Positions 1 to 23,817 of a stretch of DNA of 23,817 nucleotides are shown here, in pieces. Position numbers and translations under genes: made by a program. Position 1 is the first letter of the stretch. Every line of letters begins with the position of its first letter. The notes beneath the pieces are model-generated. The model worked only from the letters and a program-made list of their open reading frames with translations, was not told where the DNA came from and ran no database searches. Origin of the DNA: a virus; IMG/VR virus record IMGVR_UViG_3300009068_000195, positions 1 through 23,817 of that record. One strand, written 5' to 3'.

Positions 1-49
1 ATGCACGAAGATACTGATTATTAGCATCAACAATCATCATTCTTGGCAT
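1..49 (-). CDS. Partial gene at left edge; start resembles a 5'-3' exonuclease
   Basis: Only the first 16 codons are inside the window. The ATG at 47-49 is preceded by a strong Shine-Dalgarno AGGAGG with about 7 bases of spacing, so the start is convincing. The visible peptide has the pattern MIVDANNQYLRA, which resembles the first strand of Pol I-type 5'-3' exonucleases and RNase H-like flap nucleases (hydrophobic-VD-N-N-hydrophobic-x-RA), where the Asp binds catalytic metal. The start overlaps the end of the upstream 75-aa gene by 13 bases. A separate 5' nuclease would fit a phage with a polymerase-only PolA, but 16 residues cannot settle the identity. Confidence 0.4.
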   Translation of the reverse strand, partial: MPRMMIVDANNQYLRA

Positions 50-264
50 TTAAGATCCTCCTTGAAAAAATAGTGGTATTCGTCATCTTGCATTACCCAA
101 ACATAACAAAGTTCTGGGTATGCTGTAACAACAATACCAAGAATAGTAAATTCTTCTAGTAATGACATTTGTTTTGTTTTACGATGAATAATAAGTTCTG
201 AGCTATATGACTTAGCATACTTATTAACCCATACTAAATCACCTTCTTGAAGTTCTGTGTTCAT
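37..264 (-). CDS. Small hypothetical protein (75 aa)
   Basis: I do not recognise this protein by name. It starts with a short acidic stretch followed by GDLVWVNKY, then several short predicted beta strands rich in V, I, W and Y, and ends with FFKEDLKCQE. A G-D-L-V-W-V start followed by strands is common in small SH3-like barrels, but that is only a fold guess. There is no membrane segment and no catalytic motif. It overlaps the upstream 122-aa gene by 26 bases and the downstream partial gene by 13 bases, so it is probably translated in a coupled early/middle operon with them. Confidence 0.6.
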   Translation of the reverse strand: MNTELQEGDLVWVNKYAKSYSSELIIHRKTKQMSLLEEFTILGIVVTAYPELCYVWVMQDDEYHYFFKEDLKCQE

Positions 265-607
265 CGCATAGTGTCTCTACATAAAGTTTATCTCTAGATG
301 TGTTTGCTGGAGAACTGCAATACTCACAGATAGTAAAAGATCTTTTTTCTGCTTCTGCAATCATATCATAAATATGTCTAACATCTTGTTCGTCAATTTC
401 TTCAATACTAATGTAGTATCTAAGACCCCCGAACTTCTGTTTGATTTGTGCAGCACGAATGTAGCTTGATGGAGAATACTTATTATTTATAACTTCAATT
501 TTAGAAGTGATTTCTTCAACAAGTTCCTTCCATCCTTCGTTGATTTCAAAGTATGAAAGACCCTTAAGAGTCTTTGGGTACTTGTCATGCATTTCAGATT
601 CCCACAT
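239..607 (-). CDS. Hypothetical protein with C-terminal zinc-finger-like Cys/His cluster (122 aa)
   Basis: The N-terminal part has the pattern GWKELVEEI and then QIKQKFGGLRYY. This signature recurs in small phage and bacterial proteins of unknown function. The C-terminal part holds CEYC near residue 95 and C-D-E-H near residue 114, a plausible four-ligand zinc knuckle. The ATG at 605-607 follows an AGGAGAAAG ribosome site. The gene overlaps the end of the upstream 98-aa gene by 14 bases and the next gene by 26 bases. No enzymatic residues are visible. A nucleic-acid or protein-binding role is possible but is inference only. Confidence 0.65.
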   Translation of the reverse strand: MWESEMHDKYPKTLKGLSYFEINEGWKELVEEITSKIEVINNKYSPSSYIRAAQIKQKFGGLRYYISIEEIDEQDVRHIYDMIAEAEKRSFTICEYCSSPANTSRDKLYVETLCDEHRTSRR

Positions 608-890
608 TCTTTCTCCTTTCGTTTACAACCTTTCCAATAGATTCAATAGTGTTTAGAGCTATGTCAGAAATTGAATAAGGCTTTCCATTATTAATTGTAT
701 TTGAAATTTCATTTACCATAACATCGTAACAAACAGCCATTGCATAATGAAATGCTTCAAGTTCTTGAATTCCTTGTTCTTGGCTTACTTTTTTCATAGA
801 AGTACAGCCTTTAGATTTACGAATTACCCAACAACCTTCTTCTTGTTCCTCCCAAGGATTGTTGTAATTATCATAATACTTATTACTCAT
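594..890 (-). CDS. Hypothetical protein (98 aa)
   Basis: Not recognised. The first third is polar and rich in Asn, Tyr and Glu, with an acidic EEQEEG patch. The rest is predicted to be mostly helical, including an ELEAFHYAMAVCYDVM segment. It overlaps the deaminase upstream by 8 bases (ATGAGTAA) and the next gene downstream by 14 bases, so translation is probably coupled. Base composition is low: about 14 of 60 bases are G or C at 661-720. This contrasts sharply with the adjoining deaminase gene. Confidence 0.6.
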   Translation of the reverse strand: MSNKYYDNYNNPWEEQEEGCWVIRKSKGCTSMKKVSQEQGIQELEAFHYAMAVCYDVMVNEISNTINNGKPYSISDIALNTIESIGKVVNERRKNVGI

Positions 891-1305
891 TGTAAATCCT
901 CATAGATTCAATCTGTCCGTCCTCATTAGAGTAAATGACCTTCTTGATACCAACATACTGCATAGCCGCCTCACACATAGCGCAAGGCTTAGAATTGCGA
1001 AGGCATCCATCACGACCAACACGAACAACGTAGATAGTAGCACCCTCAGTAACAGAGCGATCAAGACCAAGAATAGCACCAATCTCAGCATGAACAGTAG
1101 CATGACCACGCTGCTTCTTACGGAACTGATTGGCCCATGCCTTATACTTGTTCTTGTTGCAGGACGTATTCACAACAGCACCAGCACGAACAAGAACTGC
1201 TCCATGCTTATACTCGCGAAACTCAGTCTGCATAGCGATACGCGATGCAAGCTCAATAAACCGCTGCTTCTTCTTAGACAGCTTGTTACTCGGGTGACTC
1301 TCCAT
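883..1305 (-). CDS. CMP/dCMP-type zinc deaminase (140 aa)
   Basis: Deaminase of the cytidine/deoxycytidylate superfamily. It probably acts on a cytosine nucleotide or nucleoside in pyrimidine metabolism. The catalytic zinc site is complete: HAE at residues 72-74 (zinc ligand plus proton-shuttle Glu) and PCAMC at 107-111. I chose the ATG at 1303-1305, which follows GGAG, over longer upstream codons that would extend into the promoter region. The VRVGRDG strand before the PCxxC motif resembles a group of short deaminases rather than the longer T4 dCMP deaminase (about 190 aa), so the substrate is uncertain. G+C is about 47% in 1021-1080 against about 23% in the next gene, which suggests strong codon selection or a different origin. 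Confidence 0.85.
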   Translation of the reverse strand: MESHPSNKLSKKKQRFIELASRIAMQTEFREYKHGAVLVRAGAVVNTSCNKNKYKAWANQFRKKQRGHATVHAEIGAILGLDRSVTEGATIYVVRVGRDGCLRNSKPCAMCEAAMQYVGIKKVIYSNEDGQIESMRIYNE

Positions 1306-1329
1306 GATGTTCTTTTCTCCAACACATAG

Positions 1330-1358
1330 ATAGTAACAAAGCCCCGTGAGGAAGTCAA
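1330..1358 (-). promoter_or_regulatory. Sigma-70-like promoter for the deaminase operon
   Basis: On the minus strand TTGACT (1353-1358, 5 of 6 consensus) is followed by a 17-base spacer and TACTAT (1330-1335, 4 of 6). It lies just upstream of the ribosome site and ATG of the deaminase gene. The -35 box sits in the loop of a hairpin that could end UvsX transcription. An early or middle promoter using host sigma factor is the simplest reading. Confidence 0.55.
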
Positions 1359-1369
1359 CCACACGGAGC
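1336..1369 (-). terminator. Possible terminator hairpin after UvsX
   Basis: GCTCCGTG (1362-1369) pairs with CACGGGGC (1341-1348), 8 pairs including one G-U, with a 13-base loop. It is followed on the minus strand by TTTGTT, so the U tract is weak. It lies 18 bases after the UvsX stop and overlaps the proposed deaminase promoter. Confidence 0.4.
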
Positions 1370-1387
1370 CTGTTTGTTTTACTTAGA

Positions 1388-2512
1388 TTAGTCTTCGCTT
1401 TCTATGTTGTAATAATTTGAAGCATTACCAGTTTGCTTATCAAATTTAGTAATAAGCTCTTCTTCTACAATACTTAGTACAGCATTTCTAAAACTTTCAT
1501 TCTGAAGTTCTGTAGGAAAGTCTGCTGACCTAAATCTCTTCTCTGATCCATCAAGTAGAGTAATTGTCCACCATGCACCACTTGAAGCTCTATCTGATTT
1601 AGAAATAATGTCAAGCCAAGCTTCATGGTCTGAAACTTCTACTCGTTCTCCACCCCACAAGAGTTTAAGCGAACATTCTCTACCTTCTGTACCAAAACGA
1701 GATTTCTTTAGGACACATTTAGTCTCTGACCCAATTCTAAATCCTGTTGGAGATACAACATAACTTGCTTTGCTCTTTTTTGGAGTAAGCCAAATTCTTA
1801 GCGAATAAGCATAAGATAGTGCTTTACCGCCAGGAGTTATAAATGGATTTACAAGCATTTCTGTATGTGCTGTTGGCCCCATTACAATGTTTTGTTTTAG
1901 CTGATTAAGAACAAGGAATGAGCTTTTCTTATTTGCAATTGGCTGAATAAGCTTAGCAAGACCTTTTGACATAATTCTTGGTTTTACTGCCATTGAAGAC
2001 TGAGGATTAAAATCTCCTTCAAGGTCTGCAAGCGATGGAGTAAAAGCAAAAGAGTCAAGAACAAATAAGAAGTGATCACCTTCTCCAAGAAGTTGTTCAA
2101 TAGTTTCAAGTACAAACTCAATGTTTACTGCTTGAGTATAAATAATCTCACCTACATTACATCCAGCTTTACTAAGGAATGAAGGGTCTAGTGCAGATTC
2201 TGAATCAAAGTAAACTACAGTCATTCCCATCTTTTGGGCATTAGCAGCAATCTGAGCAGCAAAGTAAGACTTACCAGAGGCTTCAATACCTGCAAGTTCT
2301 GTAATACGTCCAACTGGAATTCCTGCTTTCTTGCCTCTACAAATAATAGAGTCTAGTACATCTGAACCTGTTGGAATCCATTCTGTTACTTCTGATGGGT
2401 TTTGTTCAAGAAGATCAAAAGAAACTTCTACTCCAGCTTTTTTATTAATTGCATCTCTCATTTGTGCAATAGATAATTTACCATTTGTCGTTGTTTGAGT
2501 TTTTTTAGCCAT
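1388..2512 (-). CDS. uvsX: UvsX/RecA-type recombinase (374 aa)
   Basis: ATP-dependent strand-exchange recombinase for phage recombination and recombination-primed replication, working with gp32. Walker A is GIEASGKS at residues 75-82, closer to bacterial RecA (GPESSGKT) than to T4 UvsX. A VVYFDSESALDP segment matches the RecA region after strand 2. The Walker B strand is FLFVLDS, and LNQLKQN followed by PGGKALSYAYSLRI matches the RecA L2/DNA-binding region. The length is close to T4 UvsX (391 aa). The ATG follows AAGGAACCAA. It is next to gp32, a functional partner. Identity as a RecA-family recombinase is firm; the T4 name is by family and context. Confidence 0.92.
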   Translation of the reverse strand: MAKKTQTTTNGKLSIAQMRDAINKKAGVEVSFDLLEQNPSEVTEWIPTGSDVLDSIICRGKKAGIPVGRITELAGIEASGKSYFAAQIAANAQKMGMTVVYFDSESALDPSFLSKAGCNVGEIIYTQAVNIEFVLETIEQLLGEGDHFLFVLDSFAFTPSLADLEGDFNPQSSMAVKPRIMSKGLAKLIQPIANKKSSFLVLNQLKQNIVMGPTAHTEMLVNPFITPGGKALSYAYSLRIWLTPKKSKASYVVSPTGFRIGSETKCVLKKSRFGTEGRECSLKLLWGGERVEVSDHEAWLDIISKSDRASSGAWWTITLLDGSEKRFRSADFPTELQNESFRNAVLSIVEEELITKFDKQTGNASNYYNIESED

Positions 2513-2531
2513 TTGGTTCCTTTAGTTAAAT

Positions 2532-2562
2532 GAAAACGGGTGTACCATAAAGATACACCCGT
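2532..2562 (-). terminator. Rho-independent terminator after gp32
   Basis: A perfect 9-base stem (TACACCCGT at 2554-2562 on the plus strand with ACGGGTGTA at 2536-2544) has a 9-base loop and is followed on the minus strand by TTTTC. It stands 20 bases after the gp32 stop and 23 before the uvsX start. It would let the abundant gp32 message end separately from uvsX. Confidence 0.75.
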
Positions 2563-2578
2563 TCGGTTAATTAGTCAA
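2550..2578 (-). promoter_or_regulatory. Sigma-70-like promoter before uvsX
   Basis: On the minus strand TTGACT (2573-2578) is followed by a 17-base spacer and TATCTT (2550-2555, 4 of 6). It begins right after the gp32 stop codon and overlaps the gp32 terminator hairpin. This is the same arrangement as before the deaminase gene, which strengthens both calls. Confidence 0.45.
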
Positions 2579-2582
2579 CAGA

Positions 2583-3377
2583 TTAGTCGTCTGTACCCGT
2601 AAAACCTGCAAACGCCTCATCGACAGAAGATGTAGCTTTCTTGGTTTTACTACCACCTTTTACAATCTCACGGGACTCAGTTTCAGCAGATTCATCGGAA
2701 GCAAGGGCAGCATCAAGGATCTTCTGAACCTCTTGTGTGCTCTGGCGTGGGTAAAGTGCTCCAAAGTCAGGGATGGTATCGAGAAGTTCCTTACATTTTG
2801 CTGCTCCACCATAAGATGGATCGCAAAGTGGTGAGGACTTACGGCGAGGTGTAATCTTAGTCTCTGGGAACTGGTCTTTTGCACCAGCAGGAGGCTTAGT
2901 GTAGTCGATTACAAGGTCAAGACCATCCTGTGGATCAGTAATGTCGCCATACTCTGGATTGAGAACAAGACCAATCATAGTCTCATATGCACGCTTACCG
3001 TATTCCCATACCTGTACACCTTTTGCCTCTTCCCCGCGAACGAGAACTGGAGACATAAAACGCTGCTTGGGGAATAGCTCTTTTGCCATCTTCTGGCTTG
3101 CCTTATCCTCGTTTGCTACACCGTCACGCCAAAGCTGTGAAGCGAAGTTGCAAACAGGACAATCATCAGAGAAGTTCTTTTTGGGACAAAGAACAGTCTT
3201 ACCACCTACCTTGTAATGGAAGAAAAGCTCCTTGAATGGATCACCATCATCAGTTGGAACGATACGAACAGAGTGCTGACCCTCTTCCATCTTCCACTTA
3301 ACAGAATTATTGCTCTCCTTACCGTTATTAGCAAGCTTCTCAAGCTTGTTCTTCATTTTGCTCATATCAATAGCCAT
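2583..3377 (-). CDS. 32: gp32-like single-stranded DNA-binding protein (264 aa)
   Basis: Cooperative single-strand DNA-binding protein for replication, recombination and repair. The T4 gp32 zinc site is present with near-identical layout: H54, C64, C73 and C76 (T4: H64, C77, C87, C90). The N-terminus is basic and helical (KMKNKLEKL), as in the cooperativity domain. The C-terminus is acidic and ends AFAGFTGTDD, like the partner-binding tail of gp32. At 264 aa it is shorter than T4 gp32 (301 aa). The ATG follows AAGGAGACAG. G+C is raised (about 28 of 60 bases at 3001-3060), as expected for a highly expressed protein. It is flanked by a leader hairpin and a strong terminator. Confidence 0.92.
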   Translation of the reverse strand: MAIDMSKMKNKLEKLANNGKESNNSVKWKMEEGQHSVRIVPTDDGDPFKELFFHYKVGGKTVLCPKKNFSDDCPVCNFASQLWRDGVANEDKASQKMAKELFPKQRFMSPVLVRGEEAKGVQVWEYGKRAYETMIGLVLNPEYGDITDPQDGLDLVIDYTKPPAGAKDQFPETKITPRRKSSPLCDPSYGGAAKCKELLDTIPDFGALYPRQSTQEVQKILDAALASDESAETESREIVKGGSKTKKATSSVDEAFAGFTGTDD

Positions 3378-3407
3378 TTTACTGTCTCCTTAGTTTGTTG
3401 TTAAGAA

Positions 3408-3431
3408 CGGTTGAACAAATCTCTTCAACCG
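3408..3431 (-). promoter_or_regulatory. Leader hairpin upstream of gp32
   Basis: CGGTTGAA (3424-3431) pairs perfectly with TTCAACCG (3408-3415) around an 8-base loop, about 30 bases before the gp32 start codon and 13 after the end of the upstream gene. It lacks a proper U tract, so it is a weak terminator. In T4 the gp32 leader folds into a structure bound by gp32 for autogenous repression, and this hairpin is in the equivalent place. Function is inferred from position. Confidence 0.4.
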
Positions 3432-3444
3432 CCATGTTTCTATC

Positions 3445-3696
3445 TTATCCCTCTAGGGTGCTTTCGTCAAGATCCATTTCAAGAATCTCACCTACTAGCG
3501 TTTTATGATTGAAAATTCGGAATTCCTTAGTTTCAACATCATAAACTGTTTCGGAACCATCGGCAAGTGTTCTTACCTTTCCTGTCCCTTTGATTCTAGC
3601 CTCAACCATTGGCTTTGGCAAGTCACTAATTTTTACAAAGTGCATAGTCCTTTGAGAACCATCTTTCTTTAGAAAAGTACCTTTATACGATTTCAT
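3445..3696 (-). CDS. Small SH3-like beta protein (83 aa)
   Basis: Compact, beta-rich sequence (YKGTFLKKDGSQRTMHFVKI near the N-terminus, later EFRIFNHKTLVG) with an acidic C-terminal end. Small proteins with this look are common in T4-like marine phages and are usually labelled hypothetical or SH3-like; the fold is inferred here. It overlaps the start of the upstream HExxH gene by 14 bases, and the gp32 leader follows. No catalytic residues are visible. Confidence 0.65.
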   Translation of the reverse strand: MKSYKGTFLKKDGSQRTMHFVKISDLPKPMVEARIKGTGKVRTLADGSETVYDVETKEFRIFNHKTLVGEILEMDLDESTLEG

Positions 3697-4042
3697 TATT
3701 ACCTCTGTAGTTTTTCCAAGCCATTCTTTCTCTCTTCTCTAAGTAACTAAAATCTTTATGATTTTTATAAGCCTCTCTCTCAAAAGAGATTTCAAAATAA
3801 GCATCACGCTTATTCATACCATTTGCTAGATTCTTTAGCCATTCGTAAACGTAAAGAATGTAAAAAGGTAATACATAAAGTTCTTCTTGTTGTTTTATGT
3901 GTATACTTTCATGATTTACAGTAACTTGATTACCTTCATCACGAATAAAAACAAAAGGCCATATTGTAATTGCATAAACATCAATTACAAAACTTAAGGC
4001 TTTTGGTATTTTTGAATTTTTAATTATTATTGGTGTTTTCAT
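3683..4042 (-). CDS. Small membrane-associated HExxH metalloprotein (119 aa)
   Basis: HESIH at residues 44-48 matches the zinc-metallopeptidase HExxH motif. A downstream FEREAY around residues 87-92 provides a Glu that could be the third ligand. Hydrophobic stretches lie at about 15-33 and 57-69 (LPFYILYVYEWL), so it may sit in or on the membrane. It overlaps its neighbours by 4 bases (ATGA, tubulin-like gene upstream) and 14 bases (SH3-like gene downstream). Similar short HExxH proteins are usually annotated as hypothetical. A peptidase role is inference from the motif; no substrate is evident. Confidence 0.65.
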   Translation of the reverse strand: MKTPIIIKNSKIPKALSFVIDVYAITIWPFVFIRDEGNQVTVNHESIHIKQQEELYVLPFYILYVYEWLKNLANGMNKRDAYFEISFEREAYKNHKDFSYLEKRERMAWKNYRGNNEIV

Positions 4043-4833
4043 TTTTGTATGTGTGGTGATTTTTTAATAATGTAGCAATAATTCTTATCAAAAGAATTAG
4101 AATAAACTCCAAAACTGTTTTTTACAAATTCTTCCGATTTGCTTTCCATTTGGTCTGATAGTTTATCAAACAATTCACCATCAGTTTGCAGTTGTTTGTT
4201 GTTTATAGAGTAATAGTATCTCTTCTCTCTGCACTCGTCAAGATTGAAAAACATACTTTCAACACCAGTATCTGCATTCATAACGCCTATTGAATTTATA
4301 CAATAAGTTGGTAATGATTCAAATTCATTACCTATTATTGCTTCGTTGTGATCAAAAAAATTAATCATATGAATAGTATCAACAATTACTGTATTTAGTT
4401 TATCATAATAACCAATTATAGGAATTTTACCTACAGTCTTTGCAACATCTTCATAGTTTATTATGTACATTGAATCAAACTTTTTTGATCTTGTATACTC
4501 TTGAAGAACATTGTAAACAACTCTATCCGTCATTTTTTGCAAATCGGTTAAGAACTTTTGATTTGGTTTTATGTAAAAGATTCTAATGTTATAGTCTTTG
4601 TAATTTTCTAGTATTTTTAATGAAGCAGCACAAACTATTTCATCACCACTTACAAAAAAATCAATCTCATTATCATCTTGGTCTAGATTAAATGGAACAT
4701 GATTTGTATTTTGTTCATACTTTTCTGGGTGGTCTTGTTCTTCAACAAGAACTTTATAAATTTTATACTGTGGATAGATAGAAAATTTATCCACAATACT
4801 ACATGCTGTTTTTCCTAACCCTATAACATTCAT
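4039..4833 (-). CDS. Divergent tubulin/FtsZ-like protein (264 aa)
   Basis: The N-terminus, NVIGLGKTACSIVDKF (residues 2-17), looks like the first nucleotide-binding loop and helix of FtsZ. A hydrophobic strand ending FFVSGDEIVCAASLKIL (59-75) followed by NIRIFYIKP (82-90) matches the position of the FtsZ G-box loop and next strand, but the glycine-rich GGGTGTG is degenerate (only VSGD). IGYYDKLNTVIVDTIHMINFF (140-160) resembles the long core helix. As I recall, related proteins in other marine T4-like phages keep a better GSG-x-SG loop. A tubulin-superfamily fold is an inference; polymerisation or GTPase activity may be lost. The gene is joined to its neighbours by 4-base ATGA overlaps on both sides. 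Confidence 0.55.
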   Translation of the reverse strand: MNVIGLGKTACSIVDKFSIYPQYKIYKVLVEEQDHPEKYEQNTNHVPFNLDQDDNEIDFFVSGDEIVCAASLKILENYKDYNIRIFYIKPNQKFLTDLQKMTDRVVYNVLQEYTRSKKFDSMYIINYEDVAKTVGKIPIIGYYDKLNTVIVDTIHMINFFDHNEAIIGNEFESLPTYCINSIGVMNADTGVESMFFNLDECREKRYYYSINNKQLQTDGELFDKLSDQMESKSEEFVKNSFGVYSNSFDKNYCYIIKKSPHIQK

Positions 4834-5273
4834 TCATAACCCATTGGTATTTCTAGTGCAGTAGCAATGATTTGTTTTACATATGGTGTTTTATCTTCAA
4901 GATCATCAATGTCATTGTACTTAACCCATTGTTTGCCGCAATGTTCATAATTTAACTTTAGCTTATCTTTTATGTTTTTAATTTGATCGTCTAGTTCACA
5001 TAGATAAATGTACATCTTACCTGTTTTTGTTTTACGAACACCAGCATATGTAATCTTTCCATCAAGATTAGTTTCTTCTTTTAACTCACGTTTTGCTGCC
5101 TTGTAAGGAGGTTCACCAATTTCTATATGACCACCTGGAAATGACCAATGTAATGGCATCCAATCATCTGTTTTAGATCTTTGAATTAACAGTATCTTTT
5201 CATCTTTATCTGTTATTTCTTCTTTAGCTATTACAACAATTACAACAGAATCTGGGCTGTCTTTTGTTTCCAT
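4830..5273 (-). CDS. Nudix hydrolase (147 aa)
   Basis: Hydrolyses a nucleoside diphosphate linked to another group. The full Nudix box is at residues 48-70: G48, E54, then REL-x-EE at 62-67 and T68-N69-L70, with Glu ligands for Mg2+. Before it is a WSFPGGH strand typical of the family. The rest (LLIQRSKTDDW, KMYIYLCEL, KQWVKYNDI) follows the standard MutT-like fold. Substrate cannot be told; oxidised nucleotides, NAD- or ADP-ribose-type compounds and RNA caps are all family options. The start is 7 bases after the previous stop and the end overlaps the tubulin-like gene by 4 bases. Confidence 0.9.
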   Translation of the reverse strand: METKDSPDSVVIVVIAKEEITDKDEKILLIQRSKTDDWMPLHWSFPGGHIEIGEPPYKAAKRELKEETNLDGKITYAGVRKTKTGKMYIYLCELDDQIKNIKDKLKLNYEHCGKQWVKYNDIDDLEDKTPYVKQIIATALEIPMGYE

Positions 5274-5280
5274 CGCGTGC

Positions 5281-5535
5281 CTACTTTAGTATCTCTCTTA
5301 TAACCTCTCTAATAACTTGTTCAACAAGATTTTCAAAAGATTTGTGTTCTCCAATTGGAGGTGCAGATTTGGAGCGTTCCATAGAAGGTTTCATTGAGTA
5401 AGGAGGACCAGCTTTTTGTCCTCCGTGACCAATTACTCTCTTTTTTAAACGACTATGCTTAGCCTTCACTTTTCTTTGATAAGGCTCTGTTTGTTCTGCT
5501 AATAATTCTCTAAATTCTTGTACTAAAGGGTCCAT
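5281..5535 (-). CDS. Basic small protein with C-terminal amphipathic helix (84 aa)
   Basis: Not recognised by function. It has an N-terminal helix (LVQEFRELLAEQ), a basic, probably disordered centre (KVKAKHSRLKKRV, then MERSKSAPP), and a C-terminal helix LVEQVIREVIREILK. The basic core and amphipathic tail could suit binding to nucleic acid or to a virion shell, but nothing proves it. It starts with a one-base TAATG overlap on the Dps-like gene, so translation is coupled. There is no signal peptide or membrane segment. Confidence 0.6.
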   Translation of the reverse strand: MDPLVQEFRELLAEQTEPYQRKVKAKHSRLKKRVIGHGGQKAGPPYSMKPSMERSKSAPPIGEHKSFENLVEQVIREVIREILK

Positions 5536-5891
5536 TATTTAAGTGTCAATAGATACTTGAGTTTATTGAACTCTCCAAGAATTTCATCACGAATGTTTAA
5601 AAGGTCTGTGTCTCTTTGTGGGTCAAGAGTATCGGTCATTGAAATTAGTGTTTCAATGTATCCATCAACAATACCTTCAACATCGCCGCCAATGTCTTGG
5701 AGTTCAATTGGGCCAGTAACACGCACTCTTCCATTTCTTCCCATCCAAACCTCTGCAAAAGTGTCTATGAGATCACCTAGGGTTCCGTAGATTCCACCAA
5801 AGGCTGAGTGTCTGGCGAATGATTTTGTCTGCCAATGGAAGATTCTCATTTGTTGTTCCATTTGGACGAGTTGCATTACTATTTGGTCCAT
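5535..5891 (-). CDS. Dps/ferritin-like small helical protein (118 aa)
   Basis: Predicted all-helical. Near the N-terminus RIFHWQTKSFARH and then DLIDTFAE reproduce the Dps pattern: H28, D43 and E47 are spaced exactly as E. coli Dps H63, D78 and E82 (15 then 4 residues), and H19-W20 resembles H51-W52. The Dps D67 equivalent is G32, so the site would be incomplete. The C-terminal helix ends NKLKYLLTLK. At 118 aa it is shorter than Dps (about 165 aa). I recall this type as a widespread phage family of unknown function (DUF5856-like). A ferritin-like fold is inferred; iron oxidation is unproven. The ATG follows AGGAG, and the ACTATTTA element lies 18 bases upstream. Confidence 0.65.
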   Translation of the reverse strand: MDQIVMQLVQMEQQMRIFHWQTKSFARHSAFGGIYGTLGDLIDTFAEVWMGRNGRVRVTGPIELQDIGGDVEGIVDGYIETLISMTDTLDPQRDTDLLNIRDEILGEFNKLKYLLTLK

Positions 5892-5909
5892 TATTATCTC
5901 CTAACACTA

Positions 5910-5917
5910 TAAATAGT
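5910..5917 (-). promoter_or_regulatory. ACTATTTA element upstream of the Dps-like gene
   Basis: ACTATTTA on the minus strand, 18 bases before the start codon, in the 25-base gap after the polymerase gene. It is one of five copies found before genes in the window. It suggests separate expression of the Dps-like to SH3-like cassette. Confidence 0.4.
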
Positions 5918-7062
5918 CAAATCTTACGCATTTCTCCGTAATTATTTCCTGCTTTTACATTAACTTTAAACATACCAAGATCTGTATTTGAGAAAACATT
6001 AATAATTTTCTTTAAATCTTTTTTATCTTCTTCTGCCAAGTCAATGACGATGTTGTCGTGTATTGTAAAAGCAATAAATGATTTACGGTCTTTTAGAAAG
6101 TTAAACACTTTAATCATCTGACGAAGAGCAAGTTGACCAAATGTAGACTGAATAAGGTAAGAGAGAGCGTGATGATTATCCGCAGGAATTTCCATACCGT
6201 AGAATGTAGTAACCACTTCCCCATTCCAGTATTTATCAAGTACTTCTTTTTTGTTGTAAATGACTTCAGCCTTTTCATTCTTTGTTTCTCCGTAAAGCCA
6301 AGCAAGAAATGCAACTTTTGCTTCATCTCTTGTTTTTGTTCCGCCATAAATGAGATTGTTATTCCAATCGTGAATGTCTTCTTTAGGTTGTTCTTTGTCT
6401 GCAAGAGCTAAAAATGTCCTAAGCTCCGCACCATTATAATCAAGTTCAATAAACCAATCATTTGTTGGTTGGATAATTGAACGATGATTCTTATCCATCT
6501 GCATAATTGGGAATGAATGCTTATGAGTTGATAGTCTTCCTGTTTTTGTTCCAAAGATGTTGTAATTAATGTAATGATTTACATCTGTGTATTTTTGAAT
6601 TACTTTTTTATCTGTCAAAGACGACAAATCAATGTTTAGTTTTCTACCTTTAATGTCCCATAATACTTCGGAAAGAGCGACAAGATAATTGTAGTCTTTT
6701 GGTTTAGTGGTTGTATCTAGAATGTTTTTAACAATCTGAGATTTTACCTCGTAATAATTGATCAAAAAATGATCTGGAATCATATCAAAAATGCAATTAT
6801 CATCAAGGTTAATCTTTGCAGAATTAAAAGATTTAAAAAATGCTTTCATCTTGTTGTTAAGCATTTTCCAATCGCTCTTATAATCATCTGGAATAAATTT
6901 ATTAATTTCATCTTGGCAATAAAGATAGGCGTACTCACCACCTAGTCCAAAAGATGGATGGTAAGACCAAGACTGTATTTCTTCTGGTACTTCTTTTACT
7001 ATCTGGCCGTTAGAATAAAACCCAACGCAATCGCCTTTATTATCAAGCGGTTCAACCAACAT
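5917..7062 (-). CDS. Family A (Pol I-like) DNA polymerase, polymerase domain only (381 aa)
   Basis: Template-directed DNA polymerase. GTKTGR at 171-176 matches the Pol I TGR motif. Motif A is DYNGAELR with catalytic D208. Motif B has R245, K249, Y257 and G258 in the spacing of E. coli R754, K758, Y766 and G767, with L253 at the F762 position. Motif C is IHDN with catalytic D336; the Glu of the usual HDE is Asn. There is no 3'-5' exonuclease or 5' nuclease domain, so these would be separate genes, as reported for the T4-like Rhodothermus phage RM378. Classical T4 phages use family B gp43 instead. It begins 9 bases after the last baseplate-type gene with RBS AAGAGG. Confidence 0.88.
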   Translation of the reverse strand: MLVEPLDNKGDCVGFYSNGQIVKEVPEEIQSWSYHPSFGLGGEYAYLYCQDEINKFIPDDYKSDWKMLNNKMKAFFKSFNSAKINLDDNCIFDMIPDHFLINYYEVKSQIVKNILDTTTKPKDYNYLVALSEVLWDIKGRKLNIDLSSLTDKKVIQKYTDVNHYINYNIFGTKTGRLSTHKHSFPIMQMDKNHRSIIQPTNDWFIELDYNGAELRTFLALADKEQPKEDIHDWNNNLIYGGTKTRDEAKVAFLAWLYGETKNEKAEVIYNKKEVLDKYWNGEVVTTFYGMEIPADNHHALSYLIQSTFGQLALRQMIKVFNFLKDRKSFIAFTIHDNIVIDLAEEDKKDLKKIINVFSNTDLGMFKVNVKAGNNYGEMRKI

Positions 7063-7071
7063 GGTAGCCTC

Positions 7072-8268
7072 TTAGAGTTTATAAATAAAATTAGAAGTCT
7101 TTAGCTTTTTGCTTTTACTGACTTCGATAACGGAAGAGTAGCTTGGATTAGTTCCACCGTCAAGGAATGGCTTCGTATCTTTGTTTATAAATTGAAGTGC
7201 GCTTATTTCACCACTAGAATTATAAATGTTTGTAAGTTGTCTTAATTTGTTTTCAAATTGAATTTGGCTCAATCTTATGTCTTCTTCTCTTAAACGAACA
7301 AAGTAATACAATTTAATCCAAAATAAATCGTTATAAGTATTATCTGCTAATAGTTCTTTAGTAATGCTCTTATTTACTACTGAACTGTCGCAATTTAATT
7401 CTGGTCTTTGAACTTTTAATTTTGTTTCTACATTGTTTTTATAATAATTGGTCAACAATGTTTTTAATTCCTTCCAATCGCTTAAGTAAGTTTTACTATA
7501 CACATTAGAAAACATTTCGTCAATAGAATTAAAATTGTATGTTTTCATTTTTTCTGCTGCAAAACTTGTACTGATGTTGTACACTAATCTCCAAGGAGCA
7601 TTTTTATCAACAAAAAAACTATACTTTTCTGCTGTATTTATAAAAAATTGATAGTTTGGATCTTGTAAGTATTGAGAAACTTTTGGTCTATCGTCACCAT
7701 GATCTAGTGTAGCTAATTCTATAACCAACCCACTTACGGAAGGGCTGGAAATGTTGCTTGACATAAAAGAAGTTTGGCTTACATTTAATGATGTATTACT
7801 AATGATAGAAATAAAATAATTTAAGAAATCTTTAAGATTATAAATTTTATCTTTAAGTATAGATTTAGTAAAAGAAGAATCTAAAAATAACTTAATTACT
7901 TCATCATACTTTGTTTTTGGTATTATAGTAGAGTTAGAAACATTTAAAGGATTTAATTTTGATTTTGGTATTATCTTGAATTGATCTGCTCTTTGAAATT
8001 CAAGAACCATTTCATTAAATGAATCTGCAACAAATGAAACAGCATAATTTTGTGTTGATCTAACAACAGAATTTGTTTTCAACACTTTTAAATAATTTGT
8101 ATTTATCATAACAGAATCTAGTTCTTTATCAACCTTTCCATATAATAAAGAATTCTTCCAAAAATCTATAATGTTTGTATAATCTTTTGGATAATAGATA
8201 ACATCATAGTATTTTCTAAAGACAAATTGTTGTGCTGTTTTTTGATTATTTTTACCTAGTACTGCCAT
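7072..8268 (-). CDS. Unknown probable tail/baseplate protein (398 aa)
   Basis: I do not recognise this protein. It is rich in Asn, Ser, Tyr and Lys, typical of the AT-rich late genes here. It mixes helical stretches (about 115-160 and 310-350) with short strands, and has no signal peptide or membrane segment. Its start overlaps the stop of the 956-aa hub-like gene by one base (TAATG), so it is co-translated with it. Position at the end of the tail/baseplate block suggests a baseplate wedge or hub partner, but this is inferred from context only. Confidence 0.65.
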   Translation of the reverse strand: MAVLGKNNQKTAQQFVFRKYYDVIYYPKDYTNIIDFWKNSLLYGKVDKELDSVMINTNYLKVLKTNSVVRSTQNYAVSFVADSFNEMVLEFQRADQFKIIPKSKLNPLNVSNSTIIPKTKYDEVIKLFLDSSFTKSILKDKIYNLKDFLNYFISIISNTSLNVSQTSFMSSNISSPSVSGLVIELATLDHGDDRPKVSQYLQDPNYQFFINTAEKYSFFVDKNAPWRLVYNISTSFAAEKMKTYNFNSIDEMFSNVYSKTYLSDWKELKTLLTNYYKNNVETKLKVQRPELNCDSSVVNKSITKELLADNTYNDLFWIKLYYFVRLREEDIRLSQIQFENKLRQLTNIYNSSGEISALQFINKDTKPFLDGGTNPSYSSVIEVSKSKKLKTSNFIYKL

Positions 8269-23029: not shown

Positions 23030-23817
23030 TCAAGCTCCGCTTTCGCCAAGCATACCACGAATGATGACCAAGCCGTAAAGATCTGGTTTGACCATTTTCT
23101 TAGCGTAACGGGTCATGACGCCTTTACGTGGAACGAAGTCCTCAGTACCAAAGATAGTTGGAGTTACTTGGAGTGGAACGTATGGAGCGTAAACATAACC
23201 AGATTCAAGGAAGCTGGAGCCTTTACGACCAACGAGGATTACGTTACGAAGGAAGTATGGATCAACGTAAACGTCCCATTTCTTGGAGATTGAACCAACG
23301 TTAACTGCGCCAATTTCGCCCTTCTCGTCTTCGTGAGTTACTTTAGCTCTGAAGCCAGATGTGAACTCAAGAATGTTTGCAGTTTCTGGACCGCATACGA
23401 GGAAGTTTGCACCACCACGAAGAGTCTTTCTGTGGATTTGGGCTGATACATCATTGATTGTTTCAATGAGAGTTTCATACCAATTCGAGACAGTACCTGT
23501 AAAGTCTGGGGCTTTAGCTGATGCACCAATCTCTACGCCAGTTAATCTATTGACGAAAAGACCTGGTGATCTTGACCAATAGAATGTACCAGCAGTTGCA
23601 CCTTTAATAAGGTCTTCAAGAATTTCACGGTCAATTTCAAGACCGATTTGTTCTGAAAGAATTGATGTAAGTTCAACTTCTGCATCAAGATTGTGATAAG
23701 CATTAAGATCTTGACCAAGTTCTGGTGTCCATTTTGCTTTCATTTTCTTGGTTACAGCGGTGATGCTGATTGAATCAACTTTGATATCAATTTCTGGAAT
23801 TGCAGCGTTAGATTCAA
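23030..23817 (-). CDS. 23: Major capsid protein gp23-like, C-terminal part (262 codons visible)
   Basis: The gene runs off the right edge, so the start and the processed N-terminus are not seen. The visible part matches the gp23 core: IDIKVDSISITAVTKK, then MKAKWTPELGQDLNAYHNLD and AEVELTSILSEQIGLEIDRE. This corresponds to the T4 pattern of VTAxTRALKAxYxxELAQDLKAxHGxDAExEL followed by IxxEINREV. The C-terminal half carries YVYAPYVPLQVTPTI and GVMTRYAKKMV, also typical. G+C is raised, as expected for the most abundant virion protein. It ends 25 bases before a strong terminator. In T4 this protein forms the capsid hexamers after proteolytic processing. Confidence 0.93.
   Translation of the reverse strand, partial: ESNAAIPEIDIKVDSISITAVTKKMKAKWTPELGQDLNAYHNLDAEVELTSILSEQIGLEIDREILEDLIKGATAGTFYWSRSPGLFVNRLTGVEIGASAKAPDFTGTVSNWYETLIETINDVSAQIHRKTLRGGANFLVCGPETANILEFTSGFRAKVTHEDEKGEIGAVNVGSISKKWDVYVDPYFLRNVILVGRKGSSFLESGYVYAPYVPLQVTPTIFGTEDFVPRKGVMTRYAKKMVKPDLYGLVIIRGMLGESGA

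Follow-up and report, generated by a model that had tools for sequence, protein, structure and literature searches.

The window analysed here is a 23.8-kb fragment (23,817 nucleotides) of the IMG/VR virus record IMGVR_UViG_3300009068_000195, and it encodes a small family A DNA polymerase (PolA) of 381 residues that consists of the polymerase domain only. The open reading frame occupies positions 5917–7062 on the minus strand, with 381 codons running from 7062 to 5917, and the plus strand is stop-rich there. Membership in family A is indicated by a Pfam match to PF00476 (46.8 bits relative to a cut-off of 34.3), by a PHROGs match to phrog_17 (E 2e-16), and by an AF2 model (pLDDT 91.7) that Foldseek aligns with the Bst, Taq, Klenow, Pol nu, and apicoplast polymerases, with E values of about 1e-11 and TMq up to 0.60. 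With the single sequence as query, the PDB gave no match and only one weakly matching phage record was recovered; the family alignment was needed to recover more. A reading of the sequence made before any database search (the sequence-only reading) had described the enzyme as missing its proofreading domain, and this is borne out: the 381 residues contain no 3'-5' exonuclease domain, PF01612 has no match in the 12 records searched, and members of the family are about 380–405 residues long with few open codons upstream.

The neighbouring genes considered here also lie on the minus strand. A gp32-type single-strand DNA binding protein is encoded at 2583–3377 (phrog_1192, E 4e-28) and a UvsX-like recombinase at 1388–2512 (phrog_97, E 4e-49), and positions 1–49 contain the first 16 codons (MPRMMIVDANNQYLRA) of a 5'-3' exonuclease gene that is truncated by the window end; its start is as in the 318-residue open reading frame of the related contig L004, and its orthologues carry PF02739. 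Between PolA and gp32 lies a conserved gene (4039–4833) for a 264-residue protein with an FtsZ/tubulin fold. Searches of PHROGs, Pfam, and the PDB gave it no significant sequence match, but its AF2 model (pLDDT 84) matches FtsZ/TubZ structures in Foldseek (E 2.5e-11, TMq about 0.7). Orthologues are present in seven related records (G002, G006, G008, G013, G014, G016, and G017). We also note that the start of this gene overlaps the PolA stop by about four bases in G006, G013, and G017, that the glycine-rich nucleotide-binding loop of the protein looks degenerate, most so in the subclade of the window, and that a Dps-like protein (phrog_858; 5535–5891) and a Nudix hydrolase (4830–5273) are encoded between PolA and the FtsZ-like gene.

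At the other end of the window, positions 23030–23815 encode the C-terminal part of a gp23 major capsid protein (phrog_138), which we used for placement of the phage. Together with the tail sheath and tube, gp32, and UvsX, it agrees with the earlier description of a T4-type virion accompanied by UvsX and gp32, as both the PHROG matches and the gp23 comparison attest. Among annotated phages, the window gp23 is most similar to those of Flavobacterium phage immuto (48%) and Microcystis phage Mel-JY01 (47%), followed by Rhodothermus phage RM378 (37%) and the T4-type cyanophages (about 31%), and these identities fit a Far-T4 placement (compare PMC4360716).

The residue corresponding to F762 of Escherichia coli Pol I had been read as leucine, with the reservation that F252 rather than L253 might occupy that position. 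The family profile aligns with Klenow without gaps over RRSAKAINFGLIYG, such that R245, K249, L253, Y257, and G258 correspond to R754, K758, F762, Y766, and G767, and F252 falls at position 761; position 762 is thus Leu. The O helix, RDEAKVAFLAWLYG (R245–G258), is encoded at 6289–6330 (minus strand), with the L253 codon at 6304–6306, and its assignment comes from both the profile and an alignment of 101 sampled relatives. Motif A, FIELDYNGAELR (F204–R215; 6418–6453, minus strand), includes D208 and E213, the equivalents of D705 and the E710 steric gate, and its D, E, and R residues are invariant in the 101 relatives. Motif C (6052–6060, minus strand) is H335-D336-N337, corresponding to H881-D882-E883, in which the H and D are invariant. 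HDE is the usual but non-essential form of motif C in family A DNA polymerases. The HDN noted earlier is therefore real, yet position 883 is Ser in 72 and Asn in 29 of the 101 relatives and Glu in none, the family motif being HDS or HDN, so that the departure is nothing particular to the window enzyme and, because the whole family is without Glu at 883, is not tied to Leu762.

A scan of IMG/VR with the window protein recovered 27 relatives, and a second scan with their alignment extended this to at least 576, from which the 101 used for alignment and tree building were sampled. Position 762 is Phe in 91 of these and Leu in ten, and the ten Leu762 sequences are confined to the subclade of the window; their occurrence on ten contigs means that Leu762 is no sequencing error. 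In a quick tree without bootstrap they group as a single, fully supported clade (SH-aLRT) that sits within the Phe762 sequences, the closest Phe762 sisters (L054–L056) being about 51–53% identical to them. Ten positions, including 253, are uniform in the Leu762 subclade and almost never found outside it, and position 310 is Gln in the subclade versus Asp or Glu in all others. The tree, which covers sampled members of this family only, points to a single and apparently independent change from Phe to Leu inside a Phe762 exonuclease-less family, and the subclade is likely separate from Leu clades I and II. A joint tree with outgroups sets the family apart from the E. coli, T7, and four phage enzymes, although its branches are very long and it serves only to show separate grouping. 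We did not find a description of this small PolA family in the literature searched, which lay mostly outside subscription journals. A scan of bacterial genomes for PolA gave a single relative, in a WOR-3 bacterium MAG (CP070664.1, L180) with the same phage neighbourhood; at about 3.9–8.9 kb it contains the PolA, FtsZ-like, gp32, and UvsX genes of this phage group, and as the locus lies within a 2.8-Mb MAG chromosome it represents either a prophage or phage sequence that was wrongly joined to the bacterial assembly.

The gene appears to encode a working polymerase. Relative to its closest relatives, the window PolA has dN of 0.04 and dS of 0.44–0.46, and the resulting dN/dS of about 0.09 identifies it as a gene maintained by purifying selection. 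The equivalents of D705, D882, R668, E710, R754, K758, Y766, Q849, and H881 are invariant in all 101 relatives. A protein that has given up polymerisation and acts as a DNA-binding or scaffold protein could be imagined from the off-consensus Leu at 762 and Asn at 883, and from homologues in Mel-JY01 and immuto in which motifs B and C are altered, but the invariant catalytic residues, the selection, and the confident Pol I fold make this very improbable. In those PolA-like proteins Tyr replaces R754, YDA replaces HDE, and His replaces the E710 steric gate, changes that could alter rNTP discrimination or reflect loss of activity.

The related records show what lies beyond the window end. Contig L004 (record G010) is collinear with window positions 1–7076 at 85–95% nucleotide identity, and its gene order is PolA, FtsZ-like, gp32, UvsX, 5'-nuclease, DnaB, and Pol III. 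In five contigs of the Leu762 subclade, L004 among them, a bacterial-type family C polymerase, Pol III alpha, is encoded about 19 kb downstream of PolA, with the 5'-nuclease and a DnaB-type helicase between them. The 5'-nuclease is thus a gene of its own, about 6 kb downstream of PolA, and the window stops inside its start; a search for a separate 5' nuclease had been proposed, and PF02739 is present in ten of the ten related records searched. PF07733, a Pol III alpha domain, was detected in 13 of the 22 records searched, and five of these 13 (G001, G002, G004, G005, and G010) belong to the Leu762 subclade. Of the nine negative records, G023 has the first 273 Pol III residues at its contig end, and in the remaining eight the contig stops no more than about 13 kb from PolA, short of the 14–20 kb that separate PolA and Pol III where both are seen. 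The protein has PHP, palm, finger, and HHH domains with intact motifs (PDIDYD, KFDILG, and the PHP metal ligands). In G006 its gene is at L036:1885–5319 (minus strand), and the same gene is found in 12 other records. The window does not extend to the Pol III region, and a Pol III alpha in its own genome is deduced from these collinear relatives. We also note that GroEL and Clp protease genes are common to related genomes (L035:11443–13017 and L035:14724–15371 in G006), and that a Leu762-subclade record (G002) encodes a UvdE UV endonuclease (L041:8352–9269).

Other replication functions were sought in the same records, none of which is known to be complete. The sequence-only reading had allowed for a gp43-like family B replicase elsewhere in the genome; the relatives do encode a second polymerase, which answers that condition in spirit, but it is of family C, and PF00136 was found in none of 21 records, most of them fragments and five of them longer than 160 kb. 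The search that it proposed for a separate 3'-5' exonuclease recognised no conserved one, with PF01612 absent from 12 records and PF00929 strong only in G014. The PHP metal-ligand motifs suggest that Pol III alpha has built-in proofreading, and the PHP domain may stand in for a separate exonuclease. A bacterial-type clamp or clamp loader (PF02767, PF13177) had no match in the related records.

These findings bear on whether PolA copies the genome. It is a core gene under selection located near UvsX and gp32, and PolA-based replication is widespread among phages (PMC6302109), so one could propose that it is the main replicase, with Leu762 slowing genome copying and Pol III alpha as an auxiliary enzyme. 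Pol III alpha, however, is full-length with intact motifs and is far better conserved, with 66–69% identity among distant relatives compared with 42–49% for PolA, and the latter, at 381 residues, lacks both an exonuclease and any recognised processivity partner. Leu762-subclade relatives have Pol III alpha as a further large DNA polymerase, the genome of the window itself being incomplete. In addition, two cultured phages pair a small PolA-like protein with a large polymerase of another kind, and in total the small PolA or a PolA-like protein coexists with three kinds of large polymerase: family C, family B (Mel-JY01), and an exonuclease-bearing family A enzyme (immuto). The strongest argument we have is this coexistence, from which it follows that the small PolA is most likely not the replicase, and we regard the replicase role as improbable.

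The interpretation that we favour, with a probability of roughly two in three, is that the phage is of the Far-T4 type and has its genome copied by Pol III alpha, while the small PolA, as part of a split Pol I, fills gaps. It builds on the polymerase domain, its Leu762 and catalytic residues, the purifying selection, the separate 5'-nuclease, and the Pol III alpha of the relatives; from these we infer a Pol III alpha for the window phage, the division of labour, and a relaxed demand at position 762. In such a split Pol I the polymerase and 5'-nuclease would reside on separate genes and the 3'-5' exonuclease half would be gone. Pol III alpha would synthesise DNA behind the DnaB-type helicase in bacterial fashion; once the separate 5'-nuclease had taken away the primers, PolA would close the resulting short gaps, along with gaps in UvsX/gp32 recombination intermediates. 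Patches this short would require neither high speed nor built-in proofreading, and we propose that both the missing exonuclease and the tolerated change from Phe762 to Leu reflect this undemanding synthesis.

The gene order with gp32 and UvsX suits a role in recombination equally well, and the main rival is a recombination or repair polymerase that acts with these two proteins in D-loop extension or lesion bypass, functionally akin to the exonuclease-less Pol theta and Pol nu and not an Okazaki gap filler. The conserved gp32 and UvsX neighbourhood, the lack of an exonuclease, the non-consensus residues at 762 and 883, and the presence of human Pol nu among the Foldseek matches are all consistent with it. 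Pol nu is just one of many equal structural matches, however, and a 5'-nuclease in every related record searched is no less compatible with an enzyme that fills gaps after primers are removed; we consider this role unlikely as the sole explanation, although it may be true alongside gap filling.

Gap filling by a split Pol I changes how Leu762 is to be read. In earlier studies Leu762 is associated with temperate phages and with SNF2, RecB, or UvrD neighbours and no ring helicase (PMC6302109, PMC9069017), and it had been taken here as a sign of slow, temperate-like replication. That proposal does not stand: Pol III alpha is encoded on Leu762-subclade contigs, the nearest recognised helicase to PolA is DnaB-type and about 9 kb away, unlike the SNF2/RecB/UvrD neighbour signature, and the tyrosine integrase domain PF00589 was found in none of 13 related records, in keeping with the earlier observation that no integrase was in view. 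The published reasoning concerns PolA as a replicase, and the lifestyle inference therefore fails to carry over; since Leu762-subclade contigs also encode Pol III alpha, the speed of replication need not depend on PolA activity. More generally, virome ecology reads replication speed and lifestyle from PolA residue 762, and this proxy can be misapplied to a probable non-replicase, such that the other polymerases of the same genome need to be checked first.

We tentatively suggest, without counting it probable in all its parts, that there is a large and mostly uncultured Far-T4-type lineage that uses Pol III alpha in place of gp43, possibly with a host clamp, together with a split Pol I gap filler, in which a single independent change from Phe762 to Leu762 occurred in a non-replicase and Leu762 alone is no lifestyle marker. 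T4-type phages possibly running on Pol III alpha and not on gp43 pose a question for phage replication biology. The Leu762 subclade and its Phe sisters also offer a natural Phe-to-Leu comparison. A recent T7 study (PMC13228545) states that exchanges between Phe and Leu seldom occur and have to be accompanied by compensatory changes, and sisters this close would allow these to be sought.

The window phage can be compared with several known systems. It departs from T4-type phages in that the family B gp43 was not found in its lineage (PF00136, 21 records). T7 gp5 is likewise a phage family A polymerase, with residue 526 equivalent to 762, but it is a replicase with an exonuclease domain and Tyr at 526, and the Y526L substitution removes 97% of activity and renders the phage non-viable (PMC13228545). 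RM378, a candidate relative on account of its split polymerase, is also of the Far-T4 type, with the polymerase and exonuclease on separate genes and a stand-alone 5'-nuclease, but that split polymerase is family B (p092 with PF00136, p024 with PF03104) and not homologous to the window PolA. The virome Leu762 clades I and II (PMC6302109, PMC9069017) share the Leu, whereas in the window it goes back to one change within an exonuclease-less family that otherwise has Phe762, with a DnaB-type protein as the nearest helicase and Pol III alpha on the same contigs.

The two annotated phages with T4-type capsids nearest to that of the window, immuto and Mel-JY01, similarly encode a small PolA or PolA-like protein beside SSB, recombinase, 5'-nuclease, and DnaB genes. 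The family profile matches immuto gp001 at 54.7 bits and Mel-JY01 WWT39333.1 at 42.3 bits, although both differ from the window PolA in their altered catalytic motifs and in having Phe at 762. Altered-motif proteins of this kind are encoded at L175:1398–2624 (WWT39333.1), at L181:1–1326 (gp001), and on L179 (LR756508.1). The large polymerase of Mel-JY01 is family B, and that of immuto is a 777-residue exonuclease-bearing family A enzyme; we note that the latter (gp199, L181:37898–40231) itself has Leu762, in a cultured Far-T4-like phage. E. coli PolA, finally, differs from the window enzyme in that the latter is the polymerase part only, 381 residues without a 3'-5' exonuclease, in which Leu replaces Phe at 762 and Asn replaces Glu at 883, and in that the phage 5'-nuclease has a gene of its own. 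The two have in common the palm-fingers-thumb fold and catalytic residues seen in Klenow, a 5'-nuclease encoded in the same genome and, if our proposal is correct, the job of filling gaps beside Pol III.
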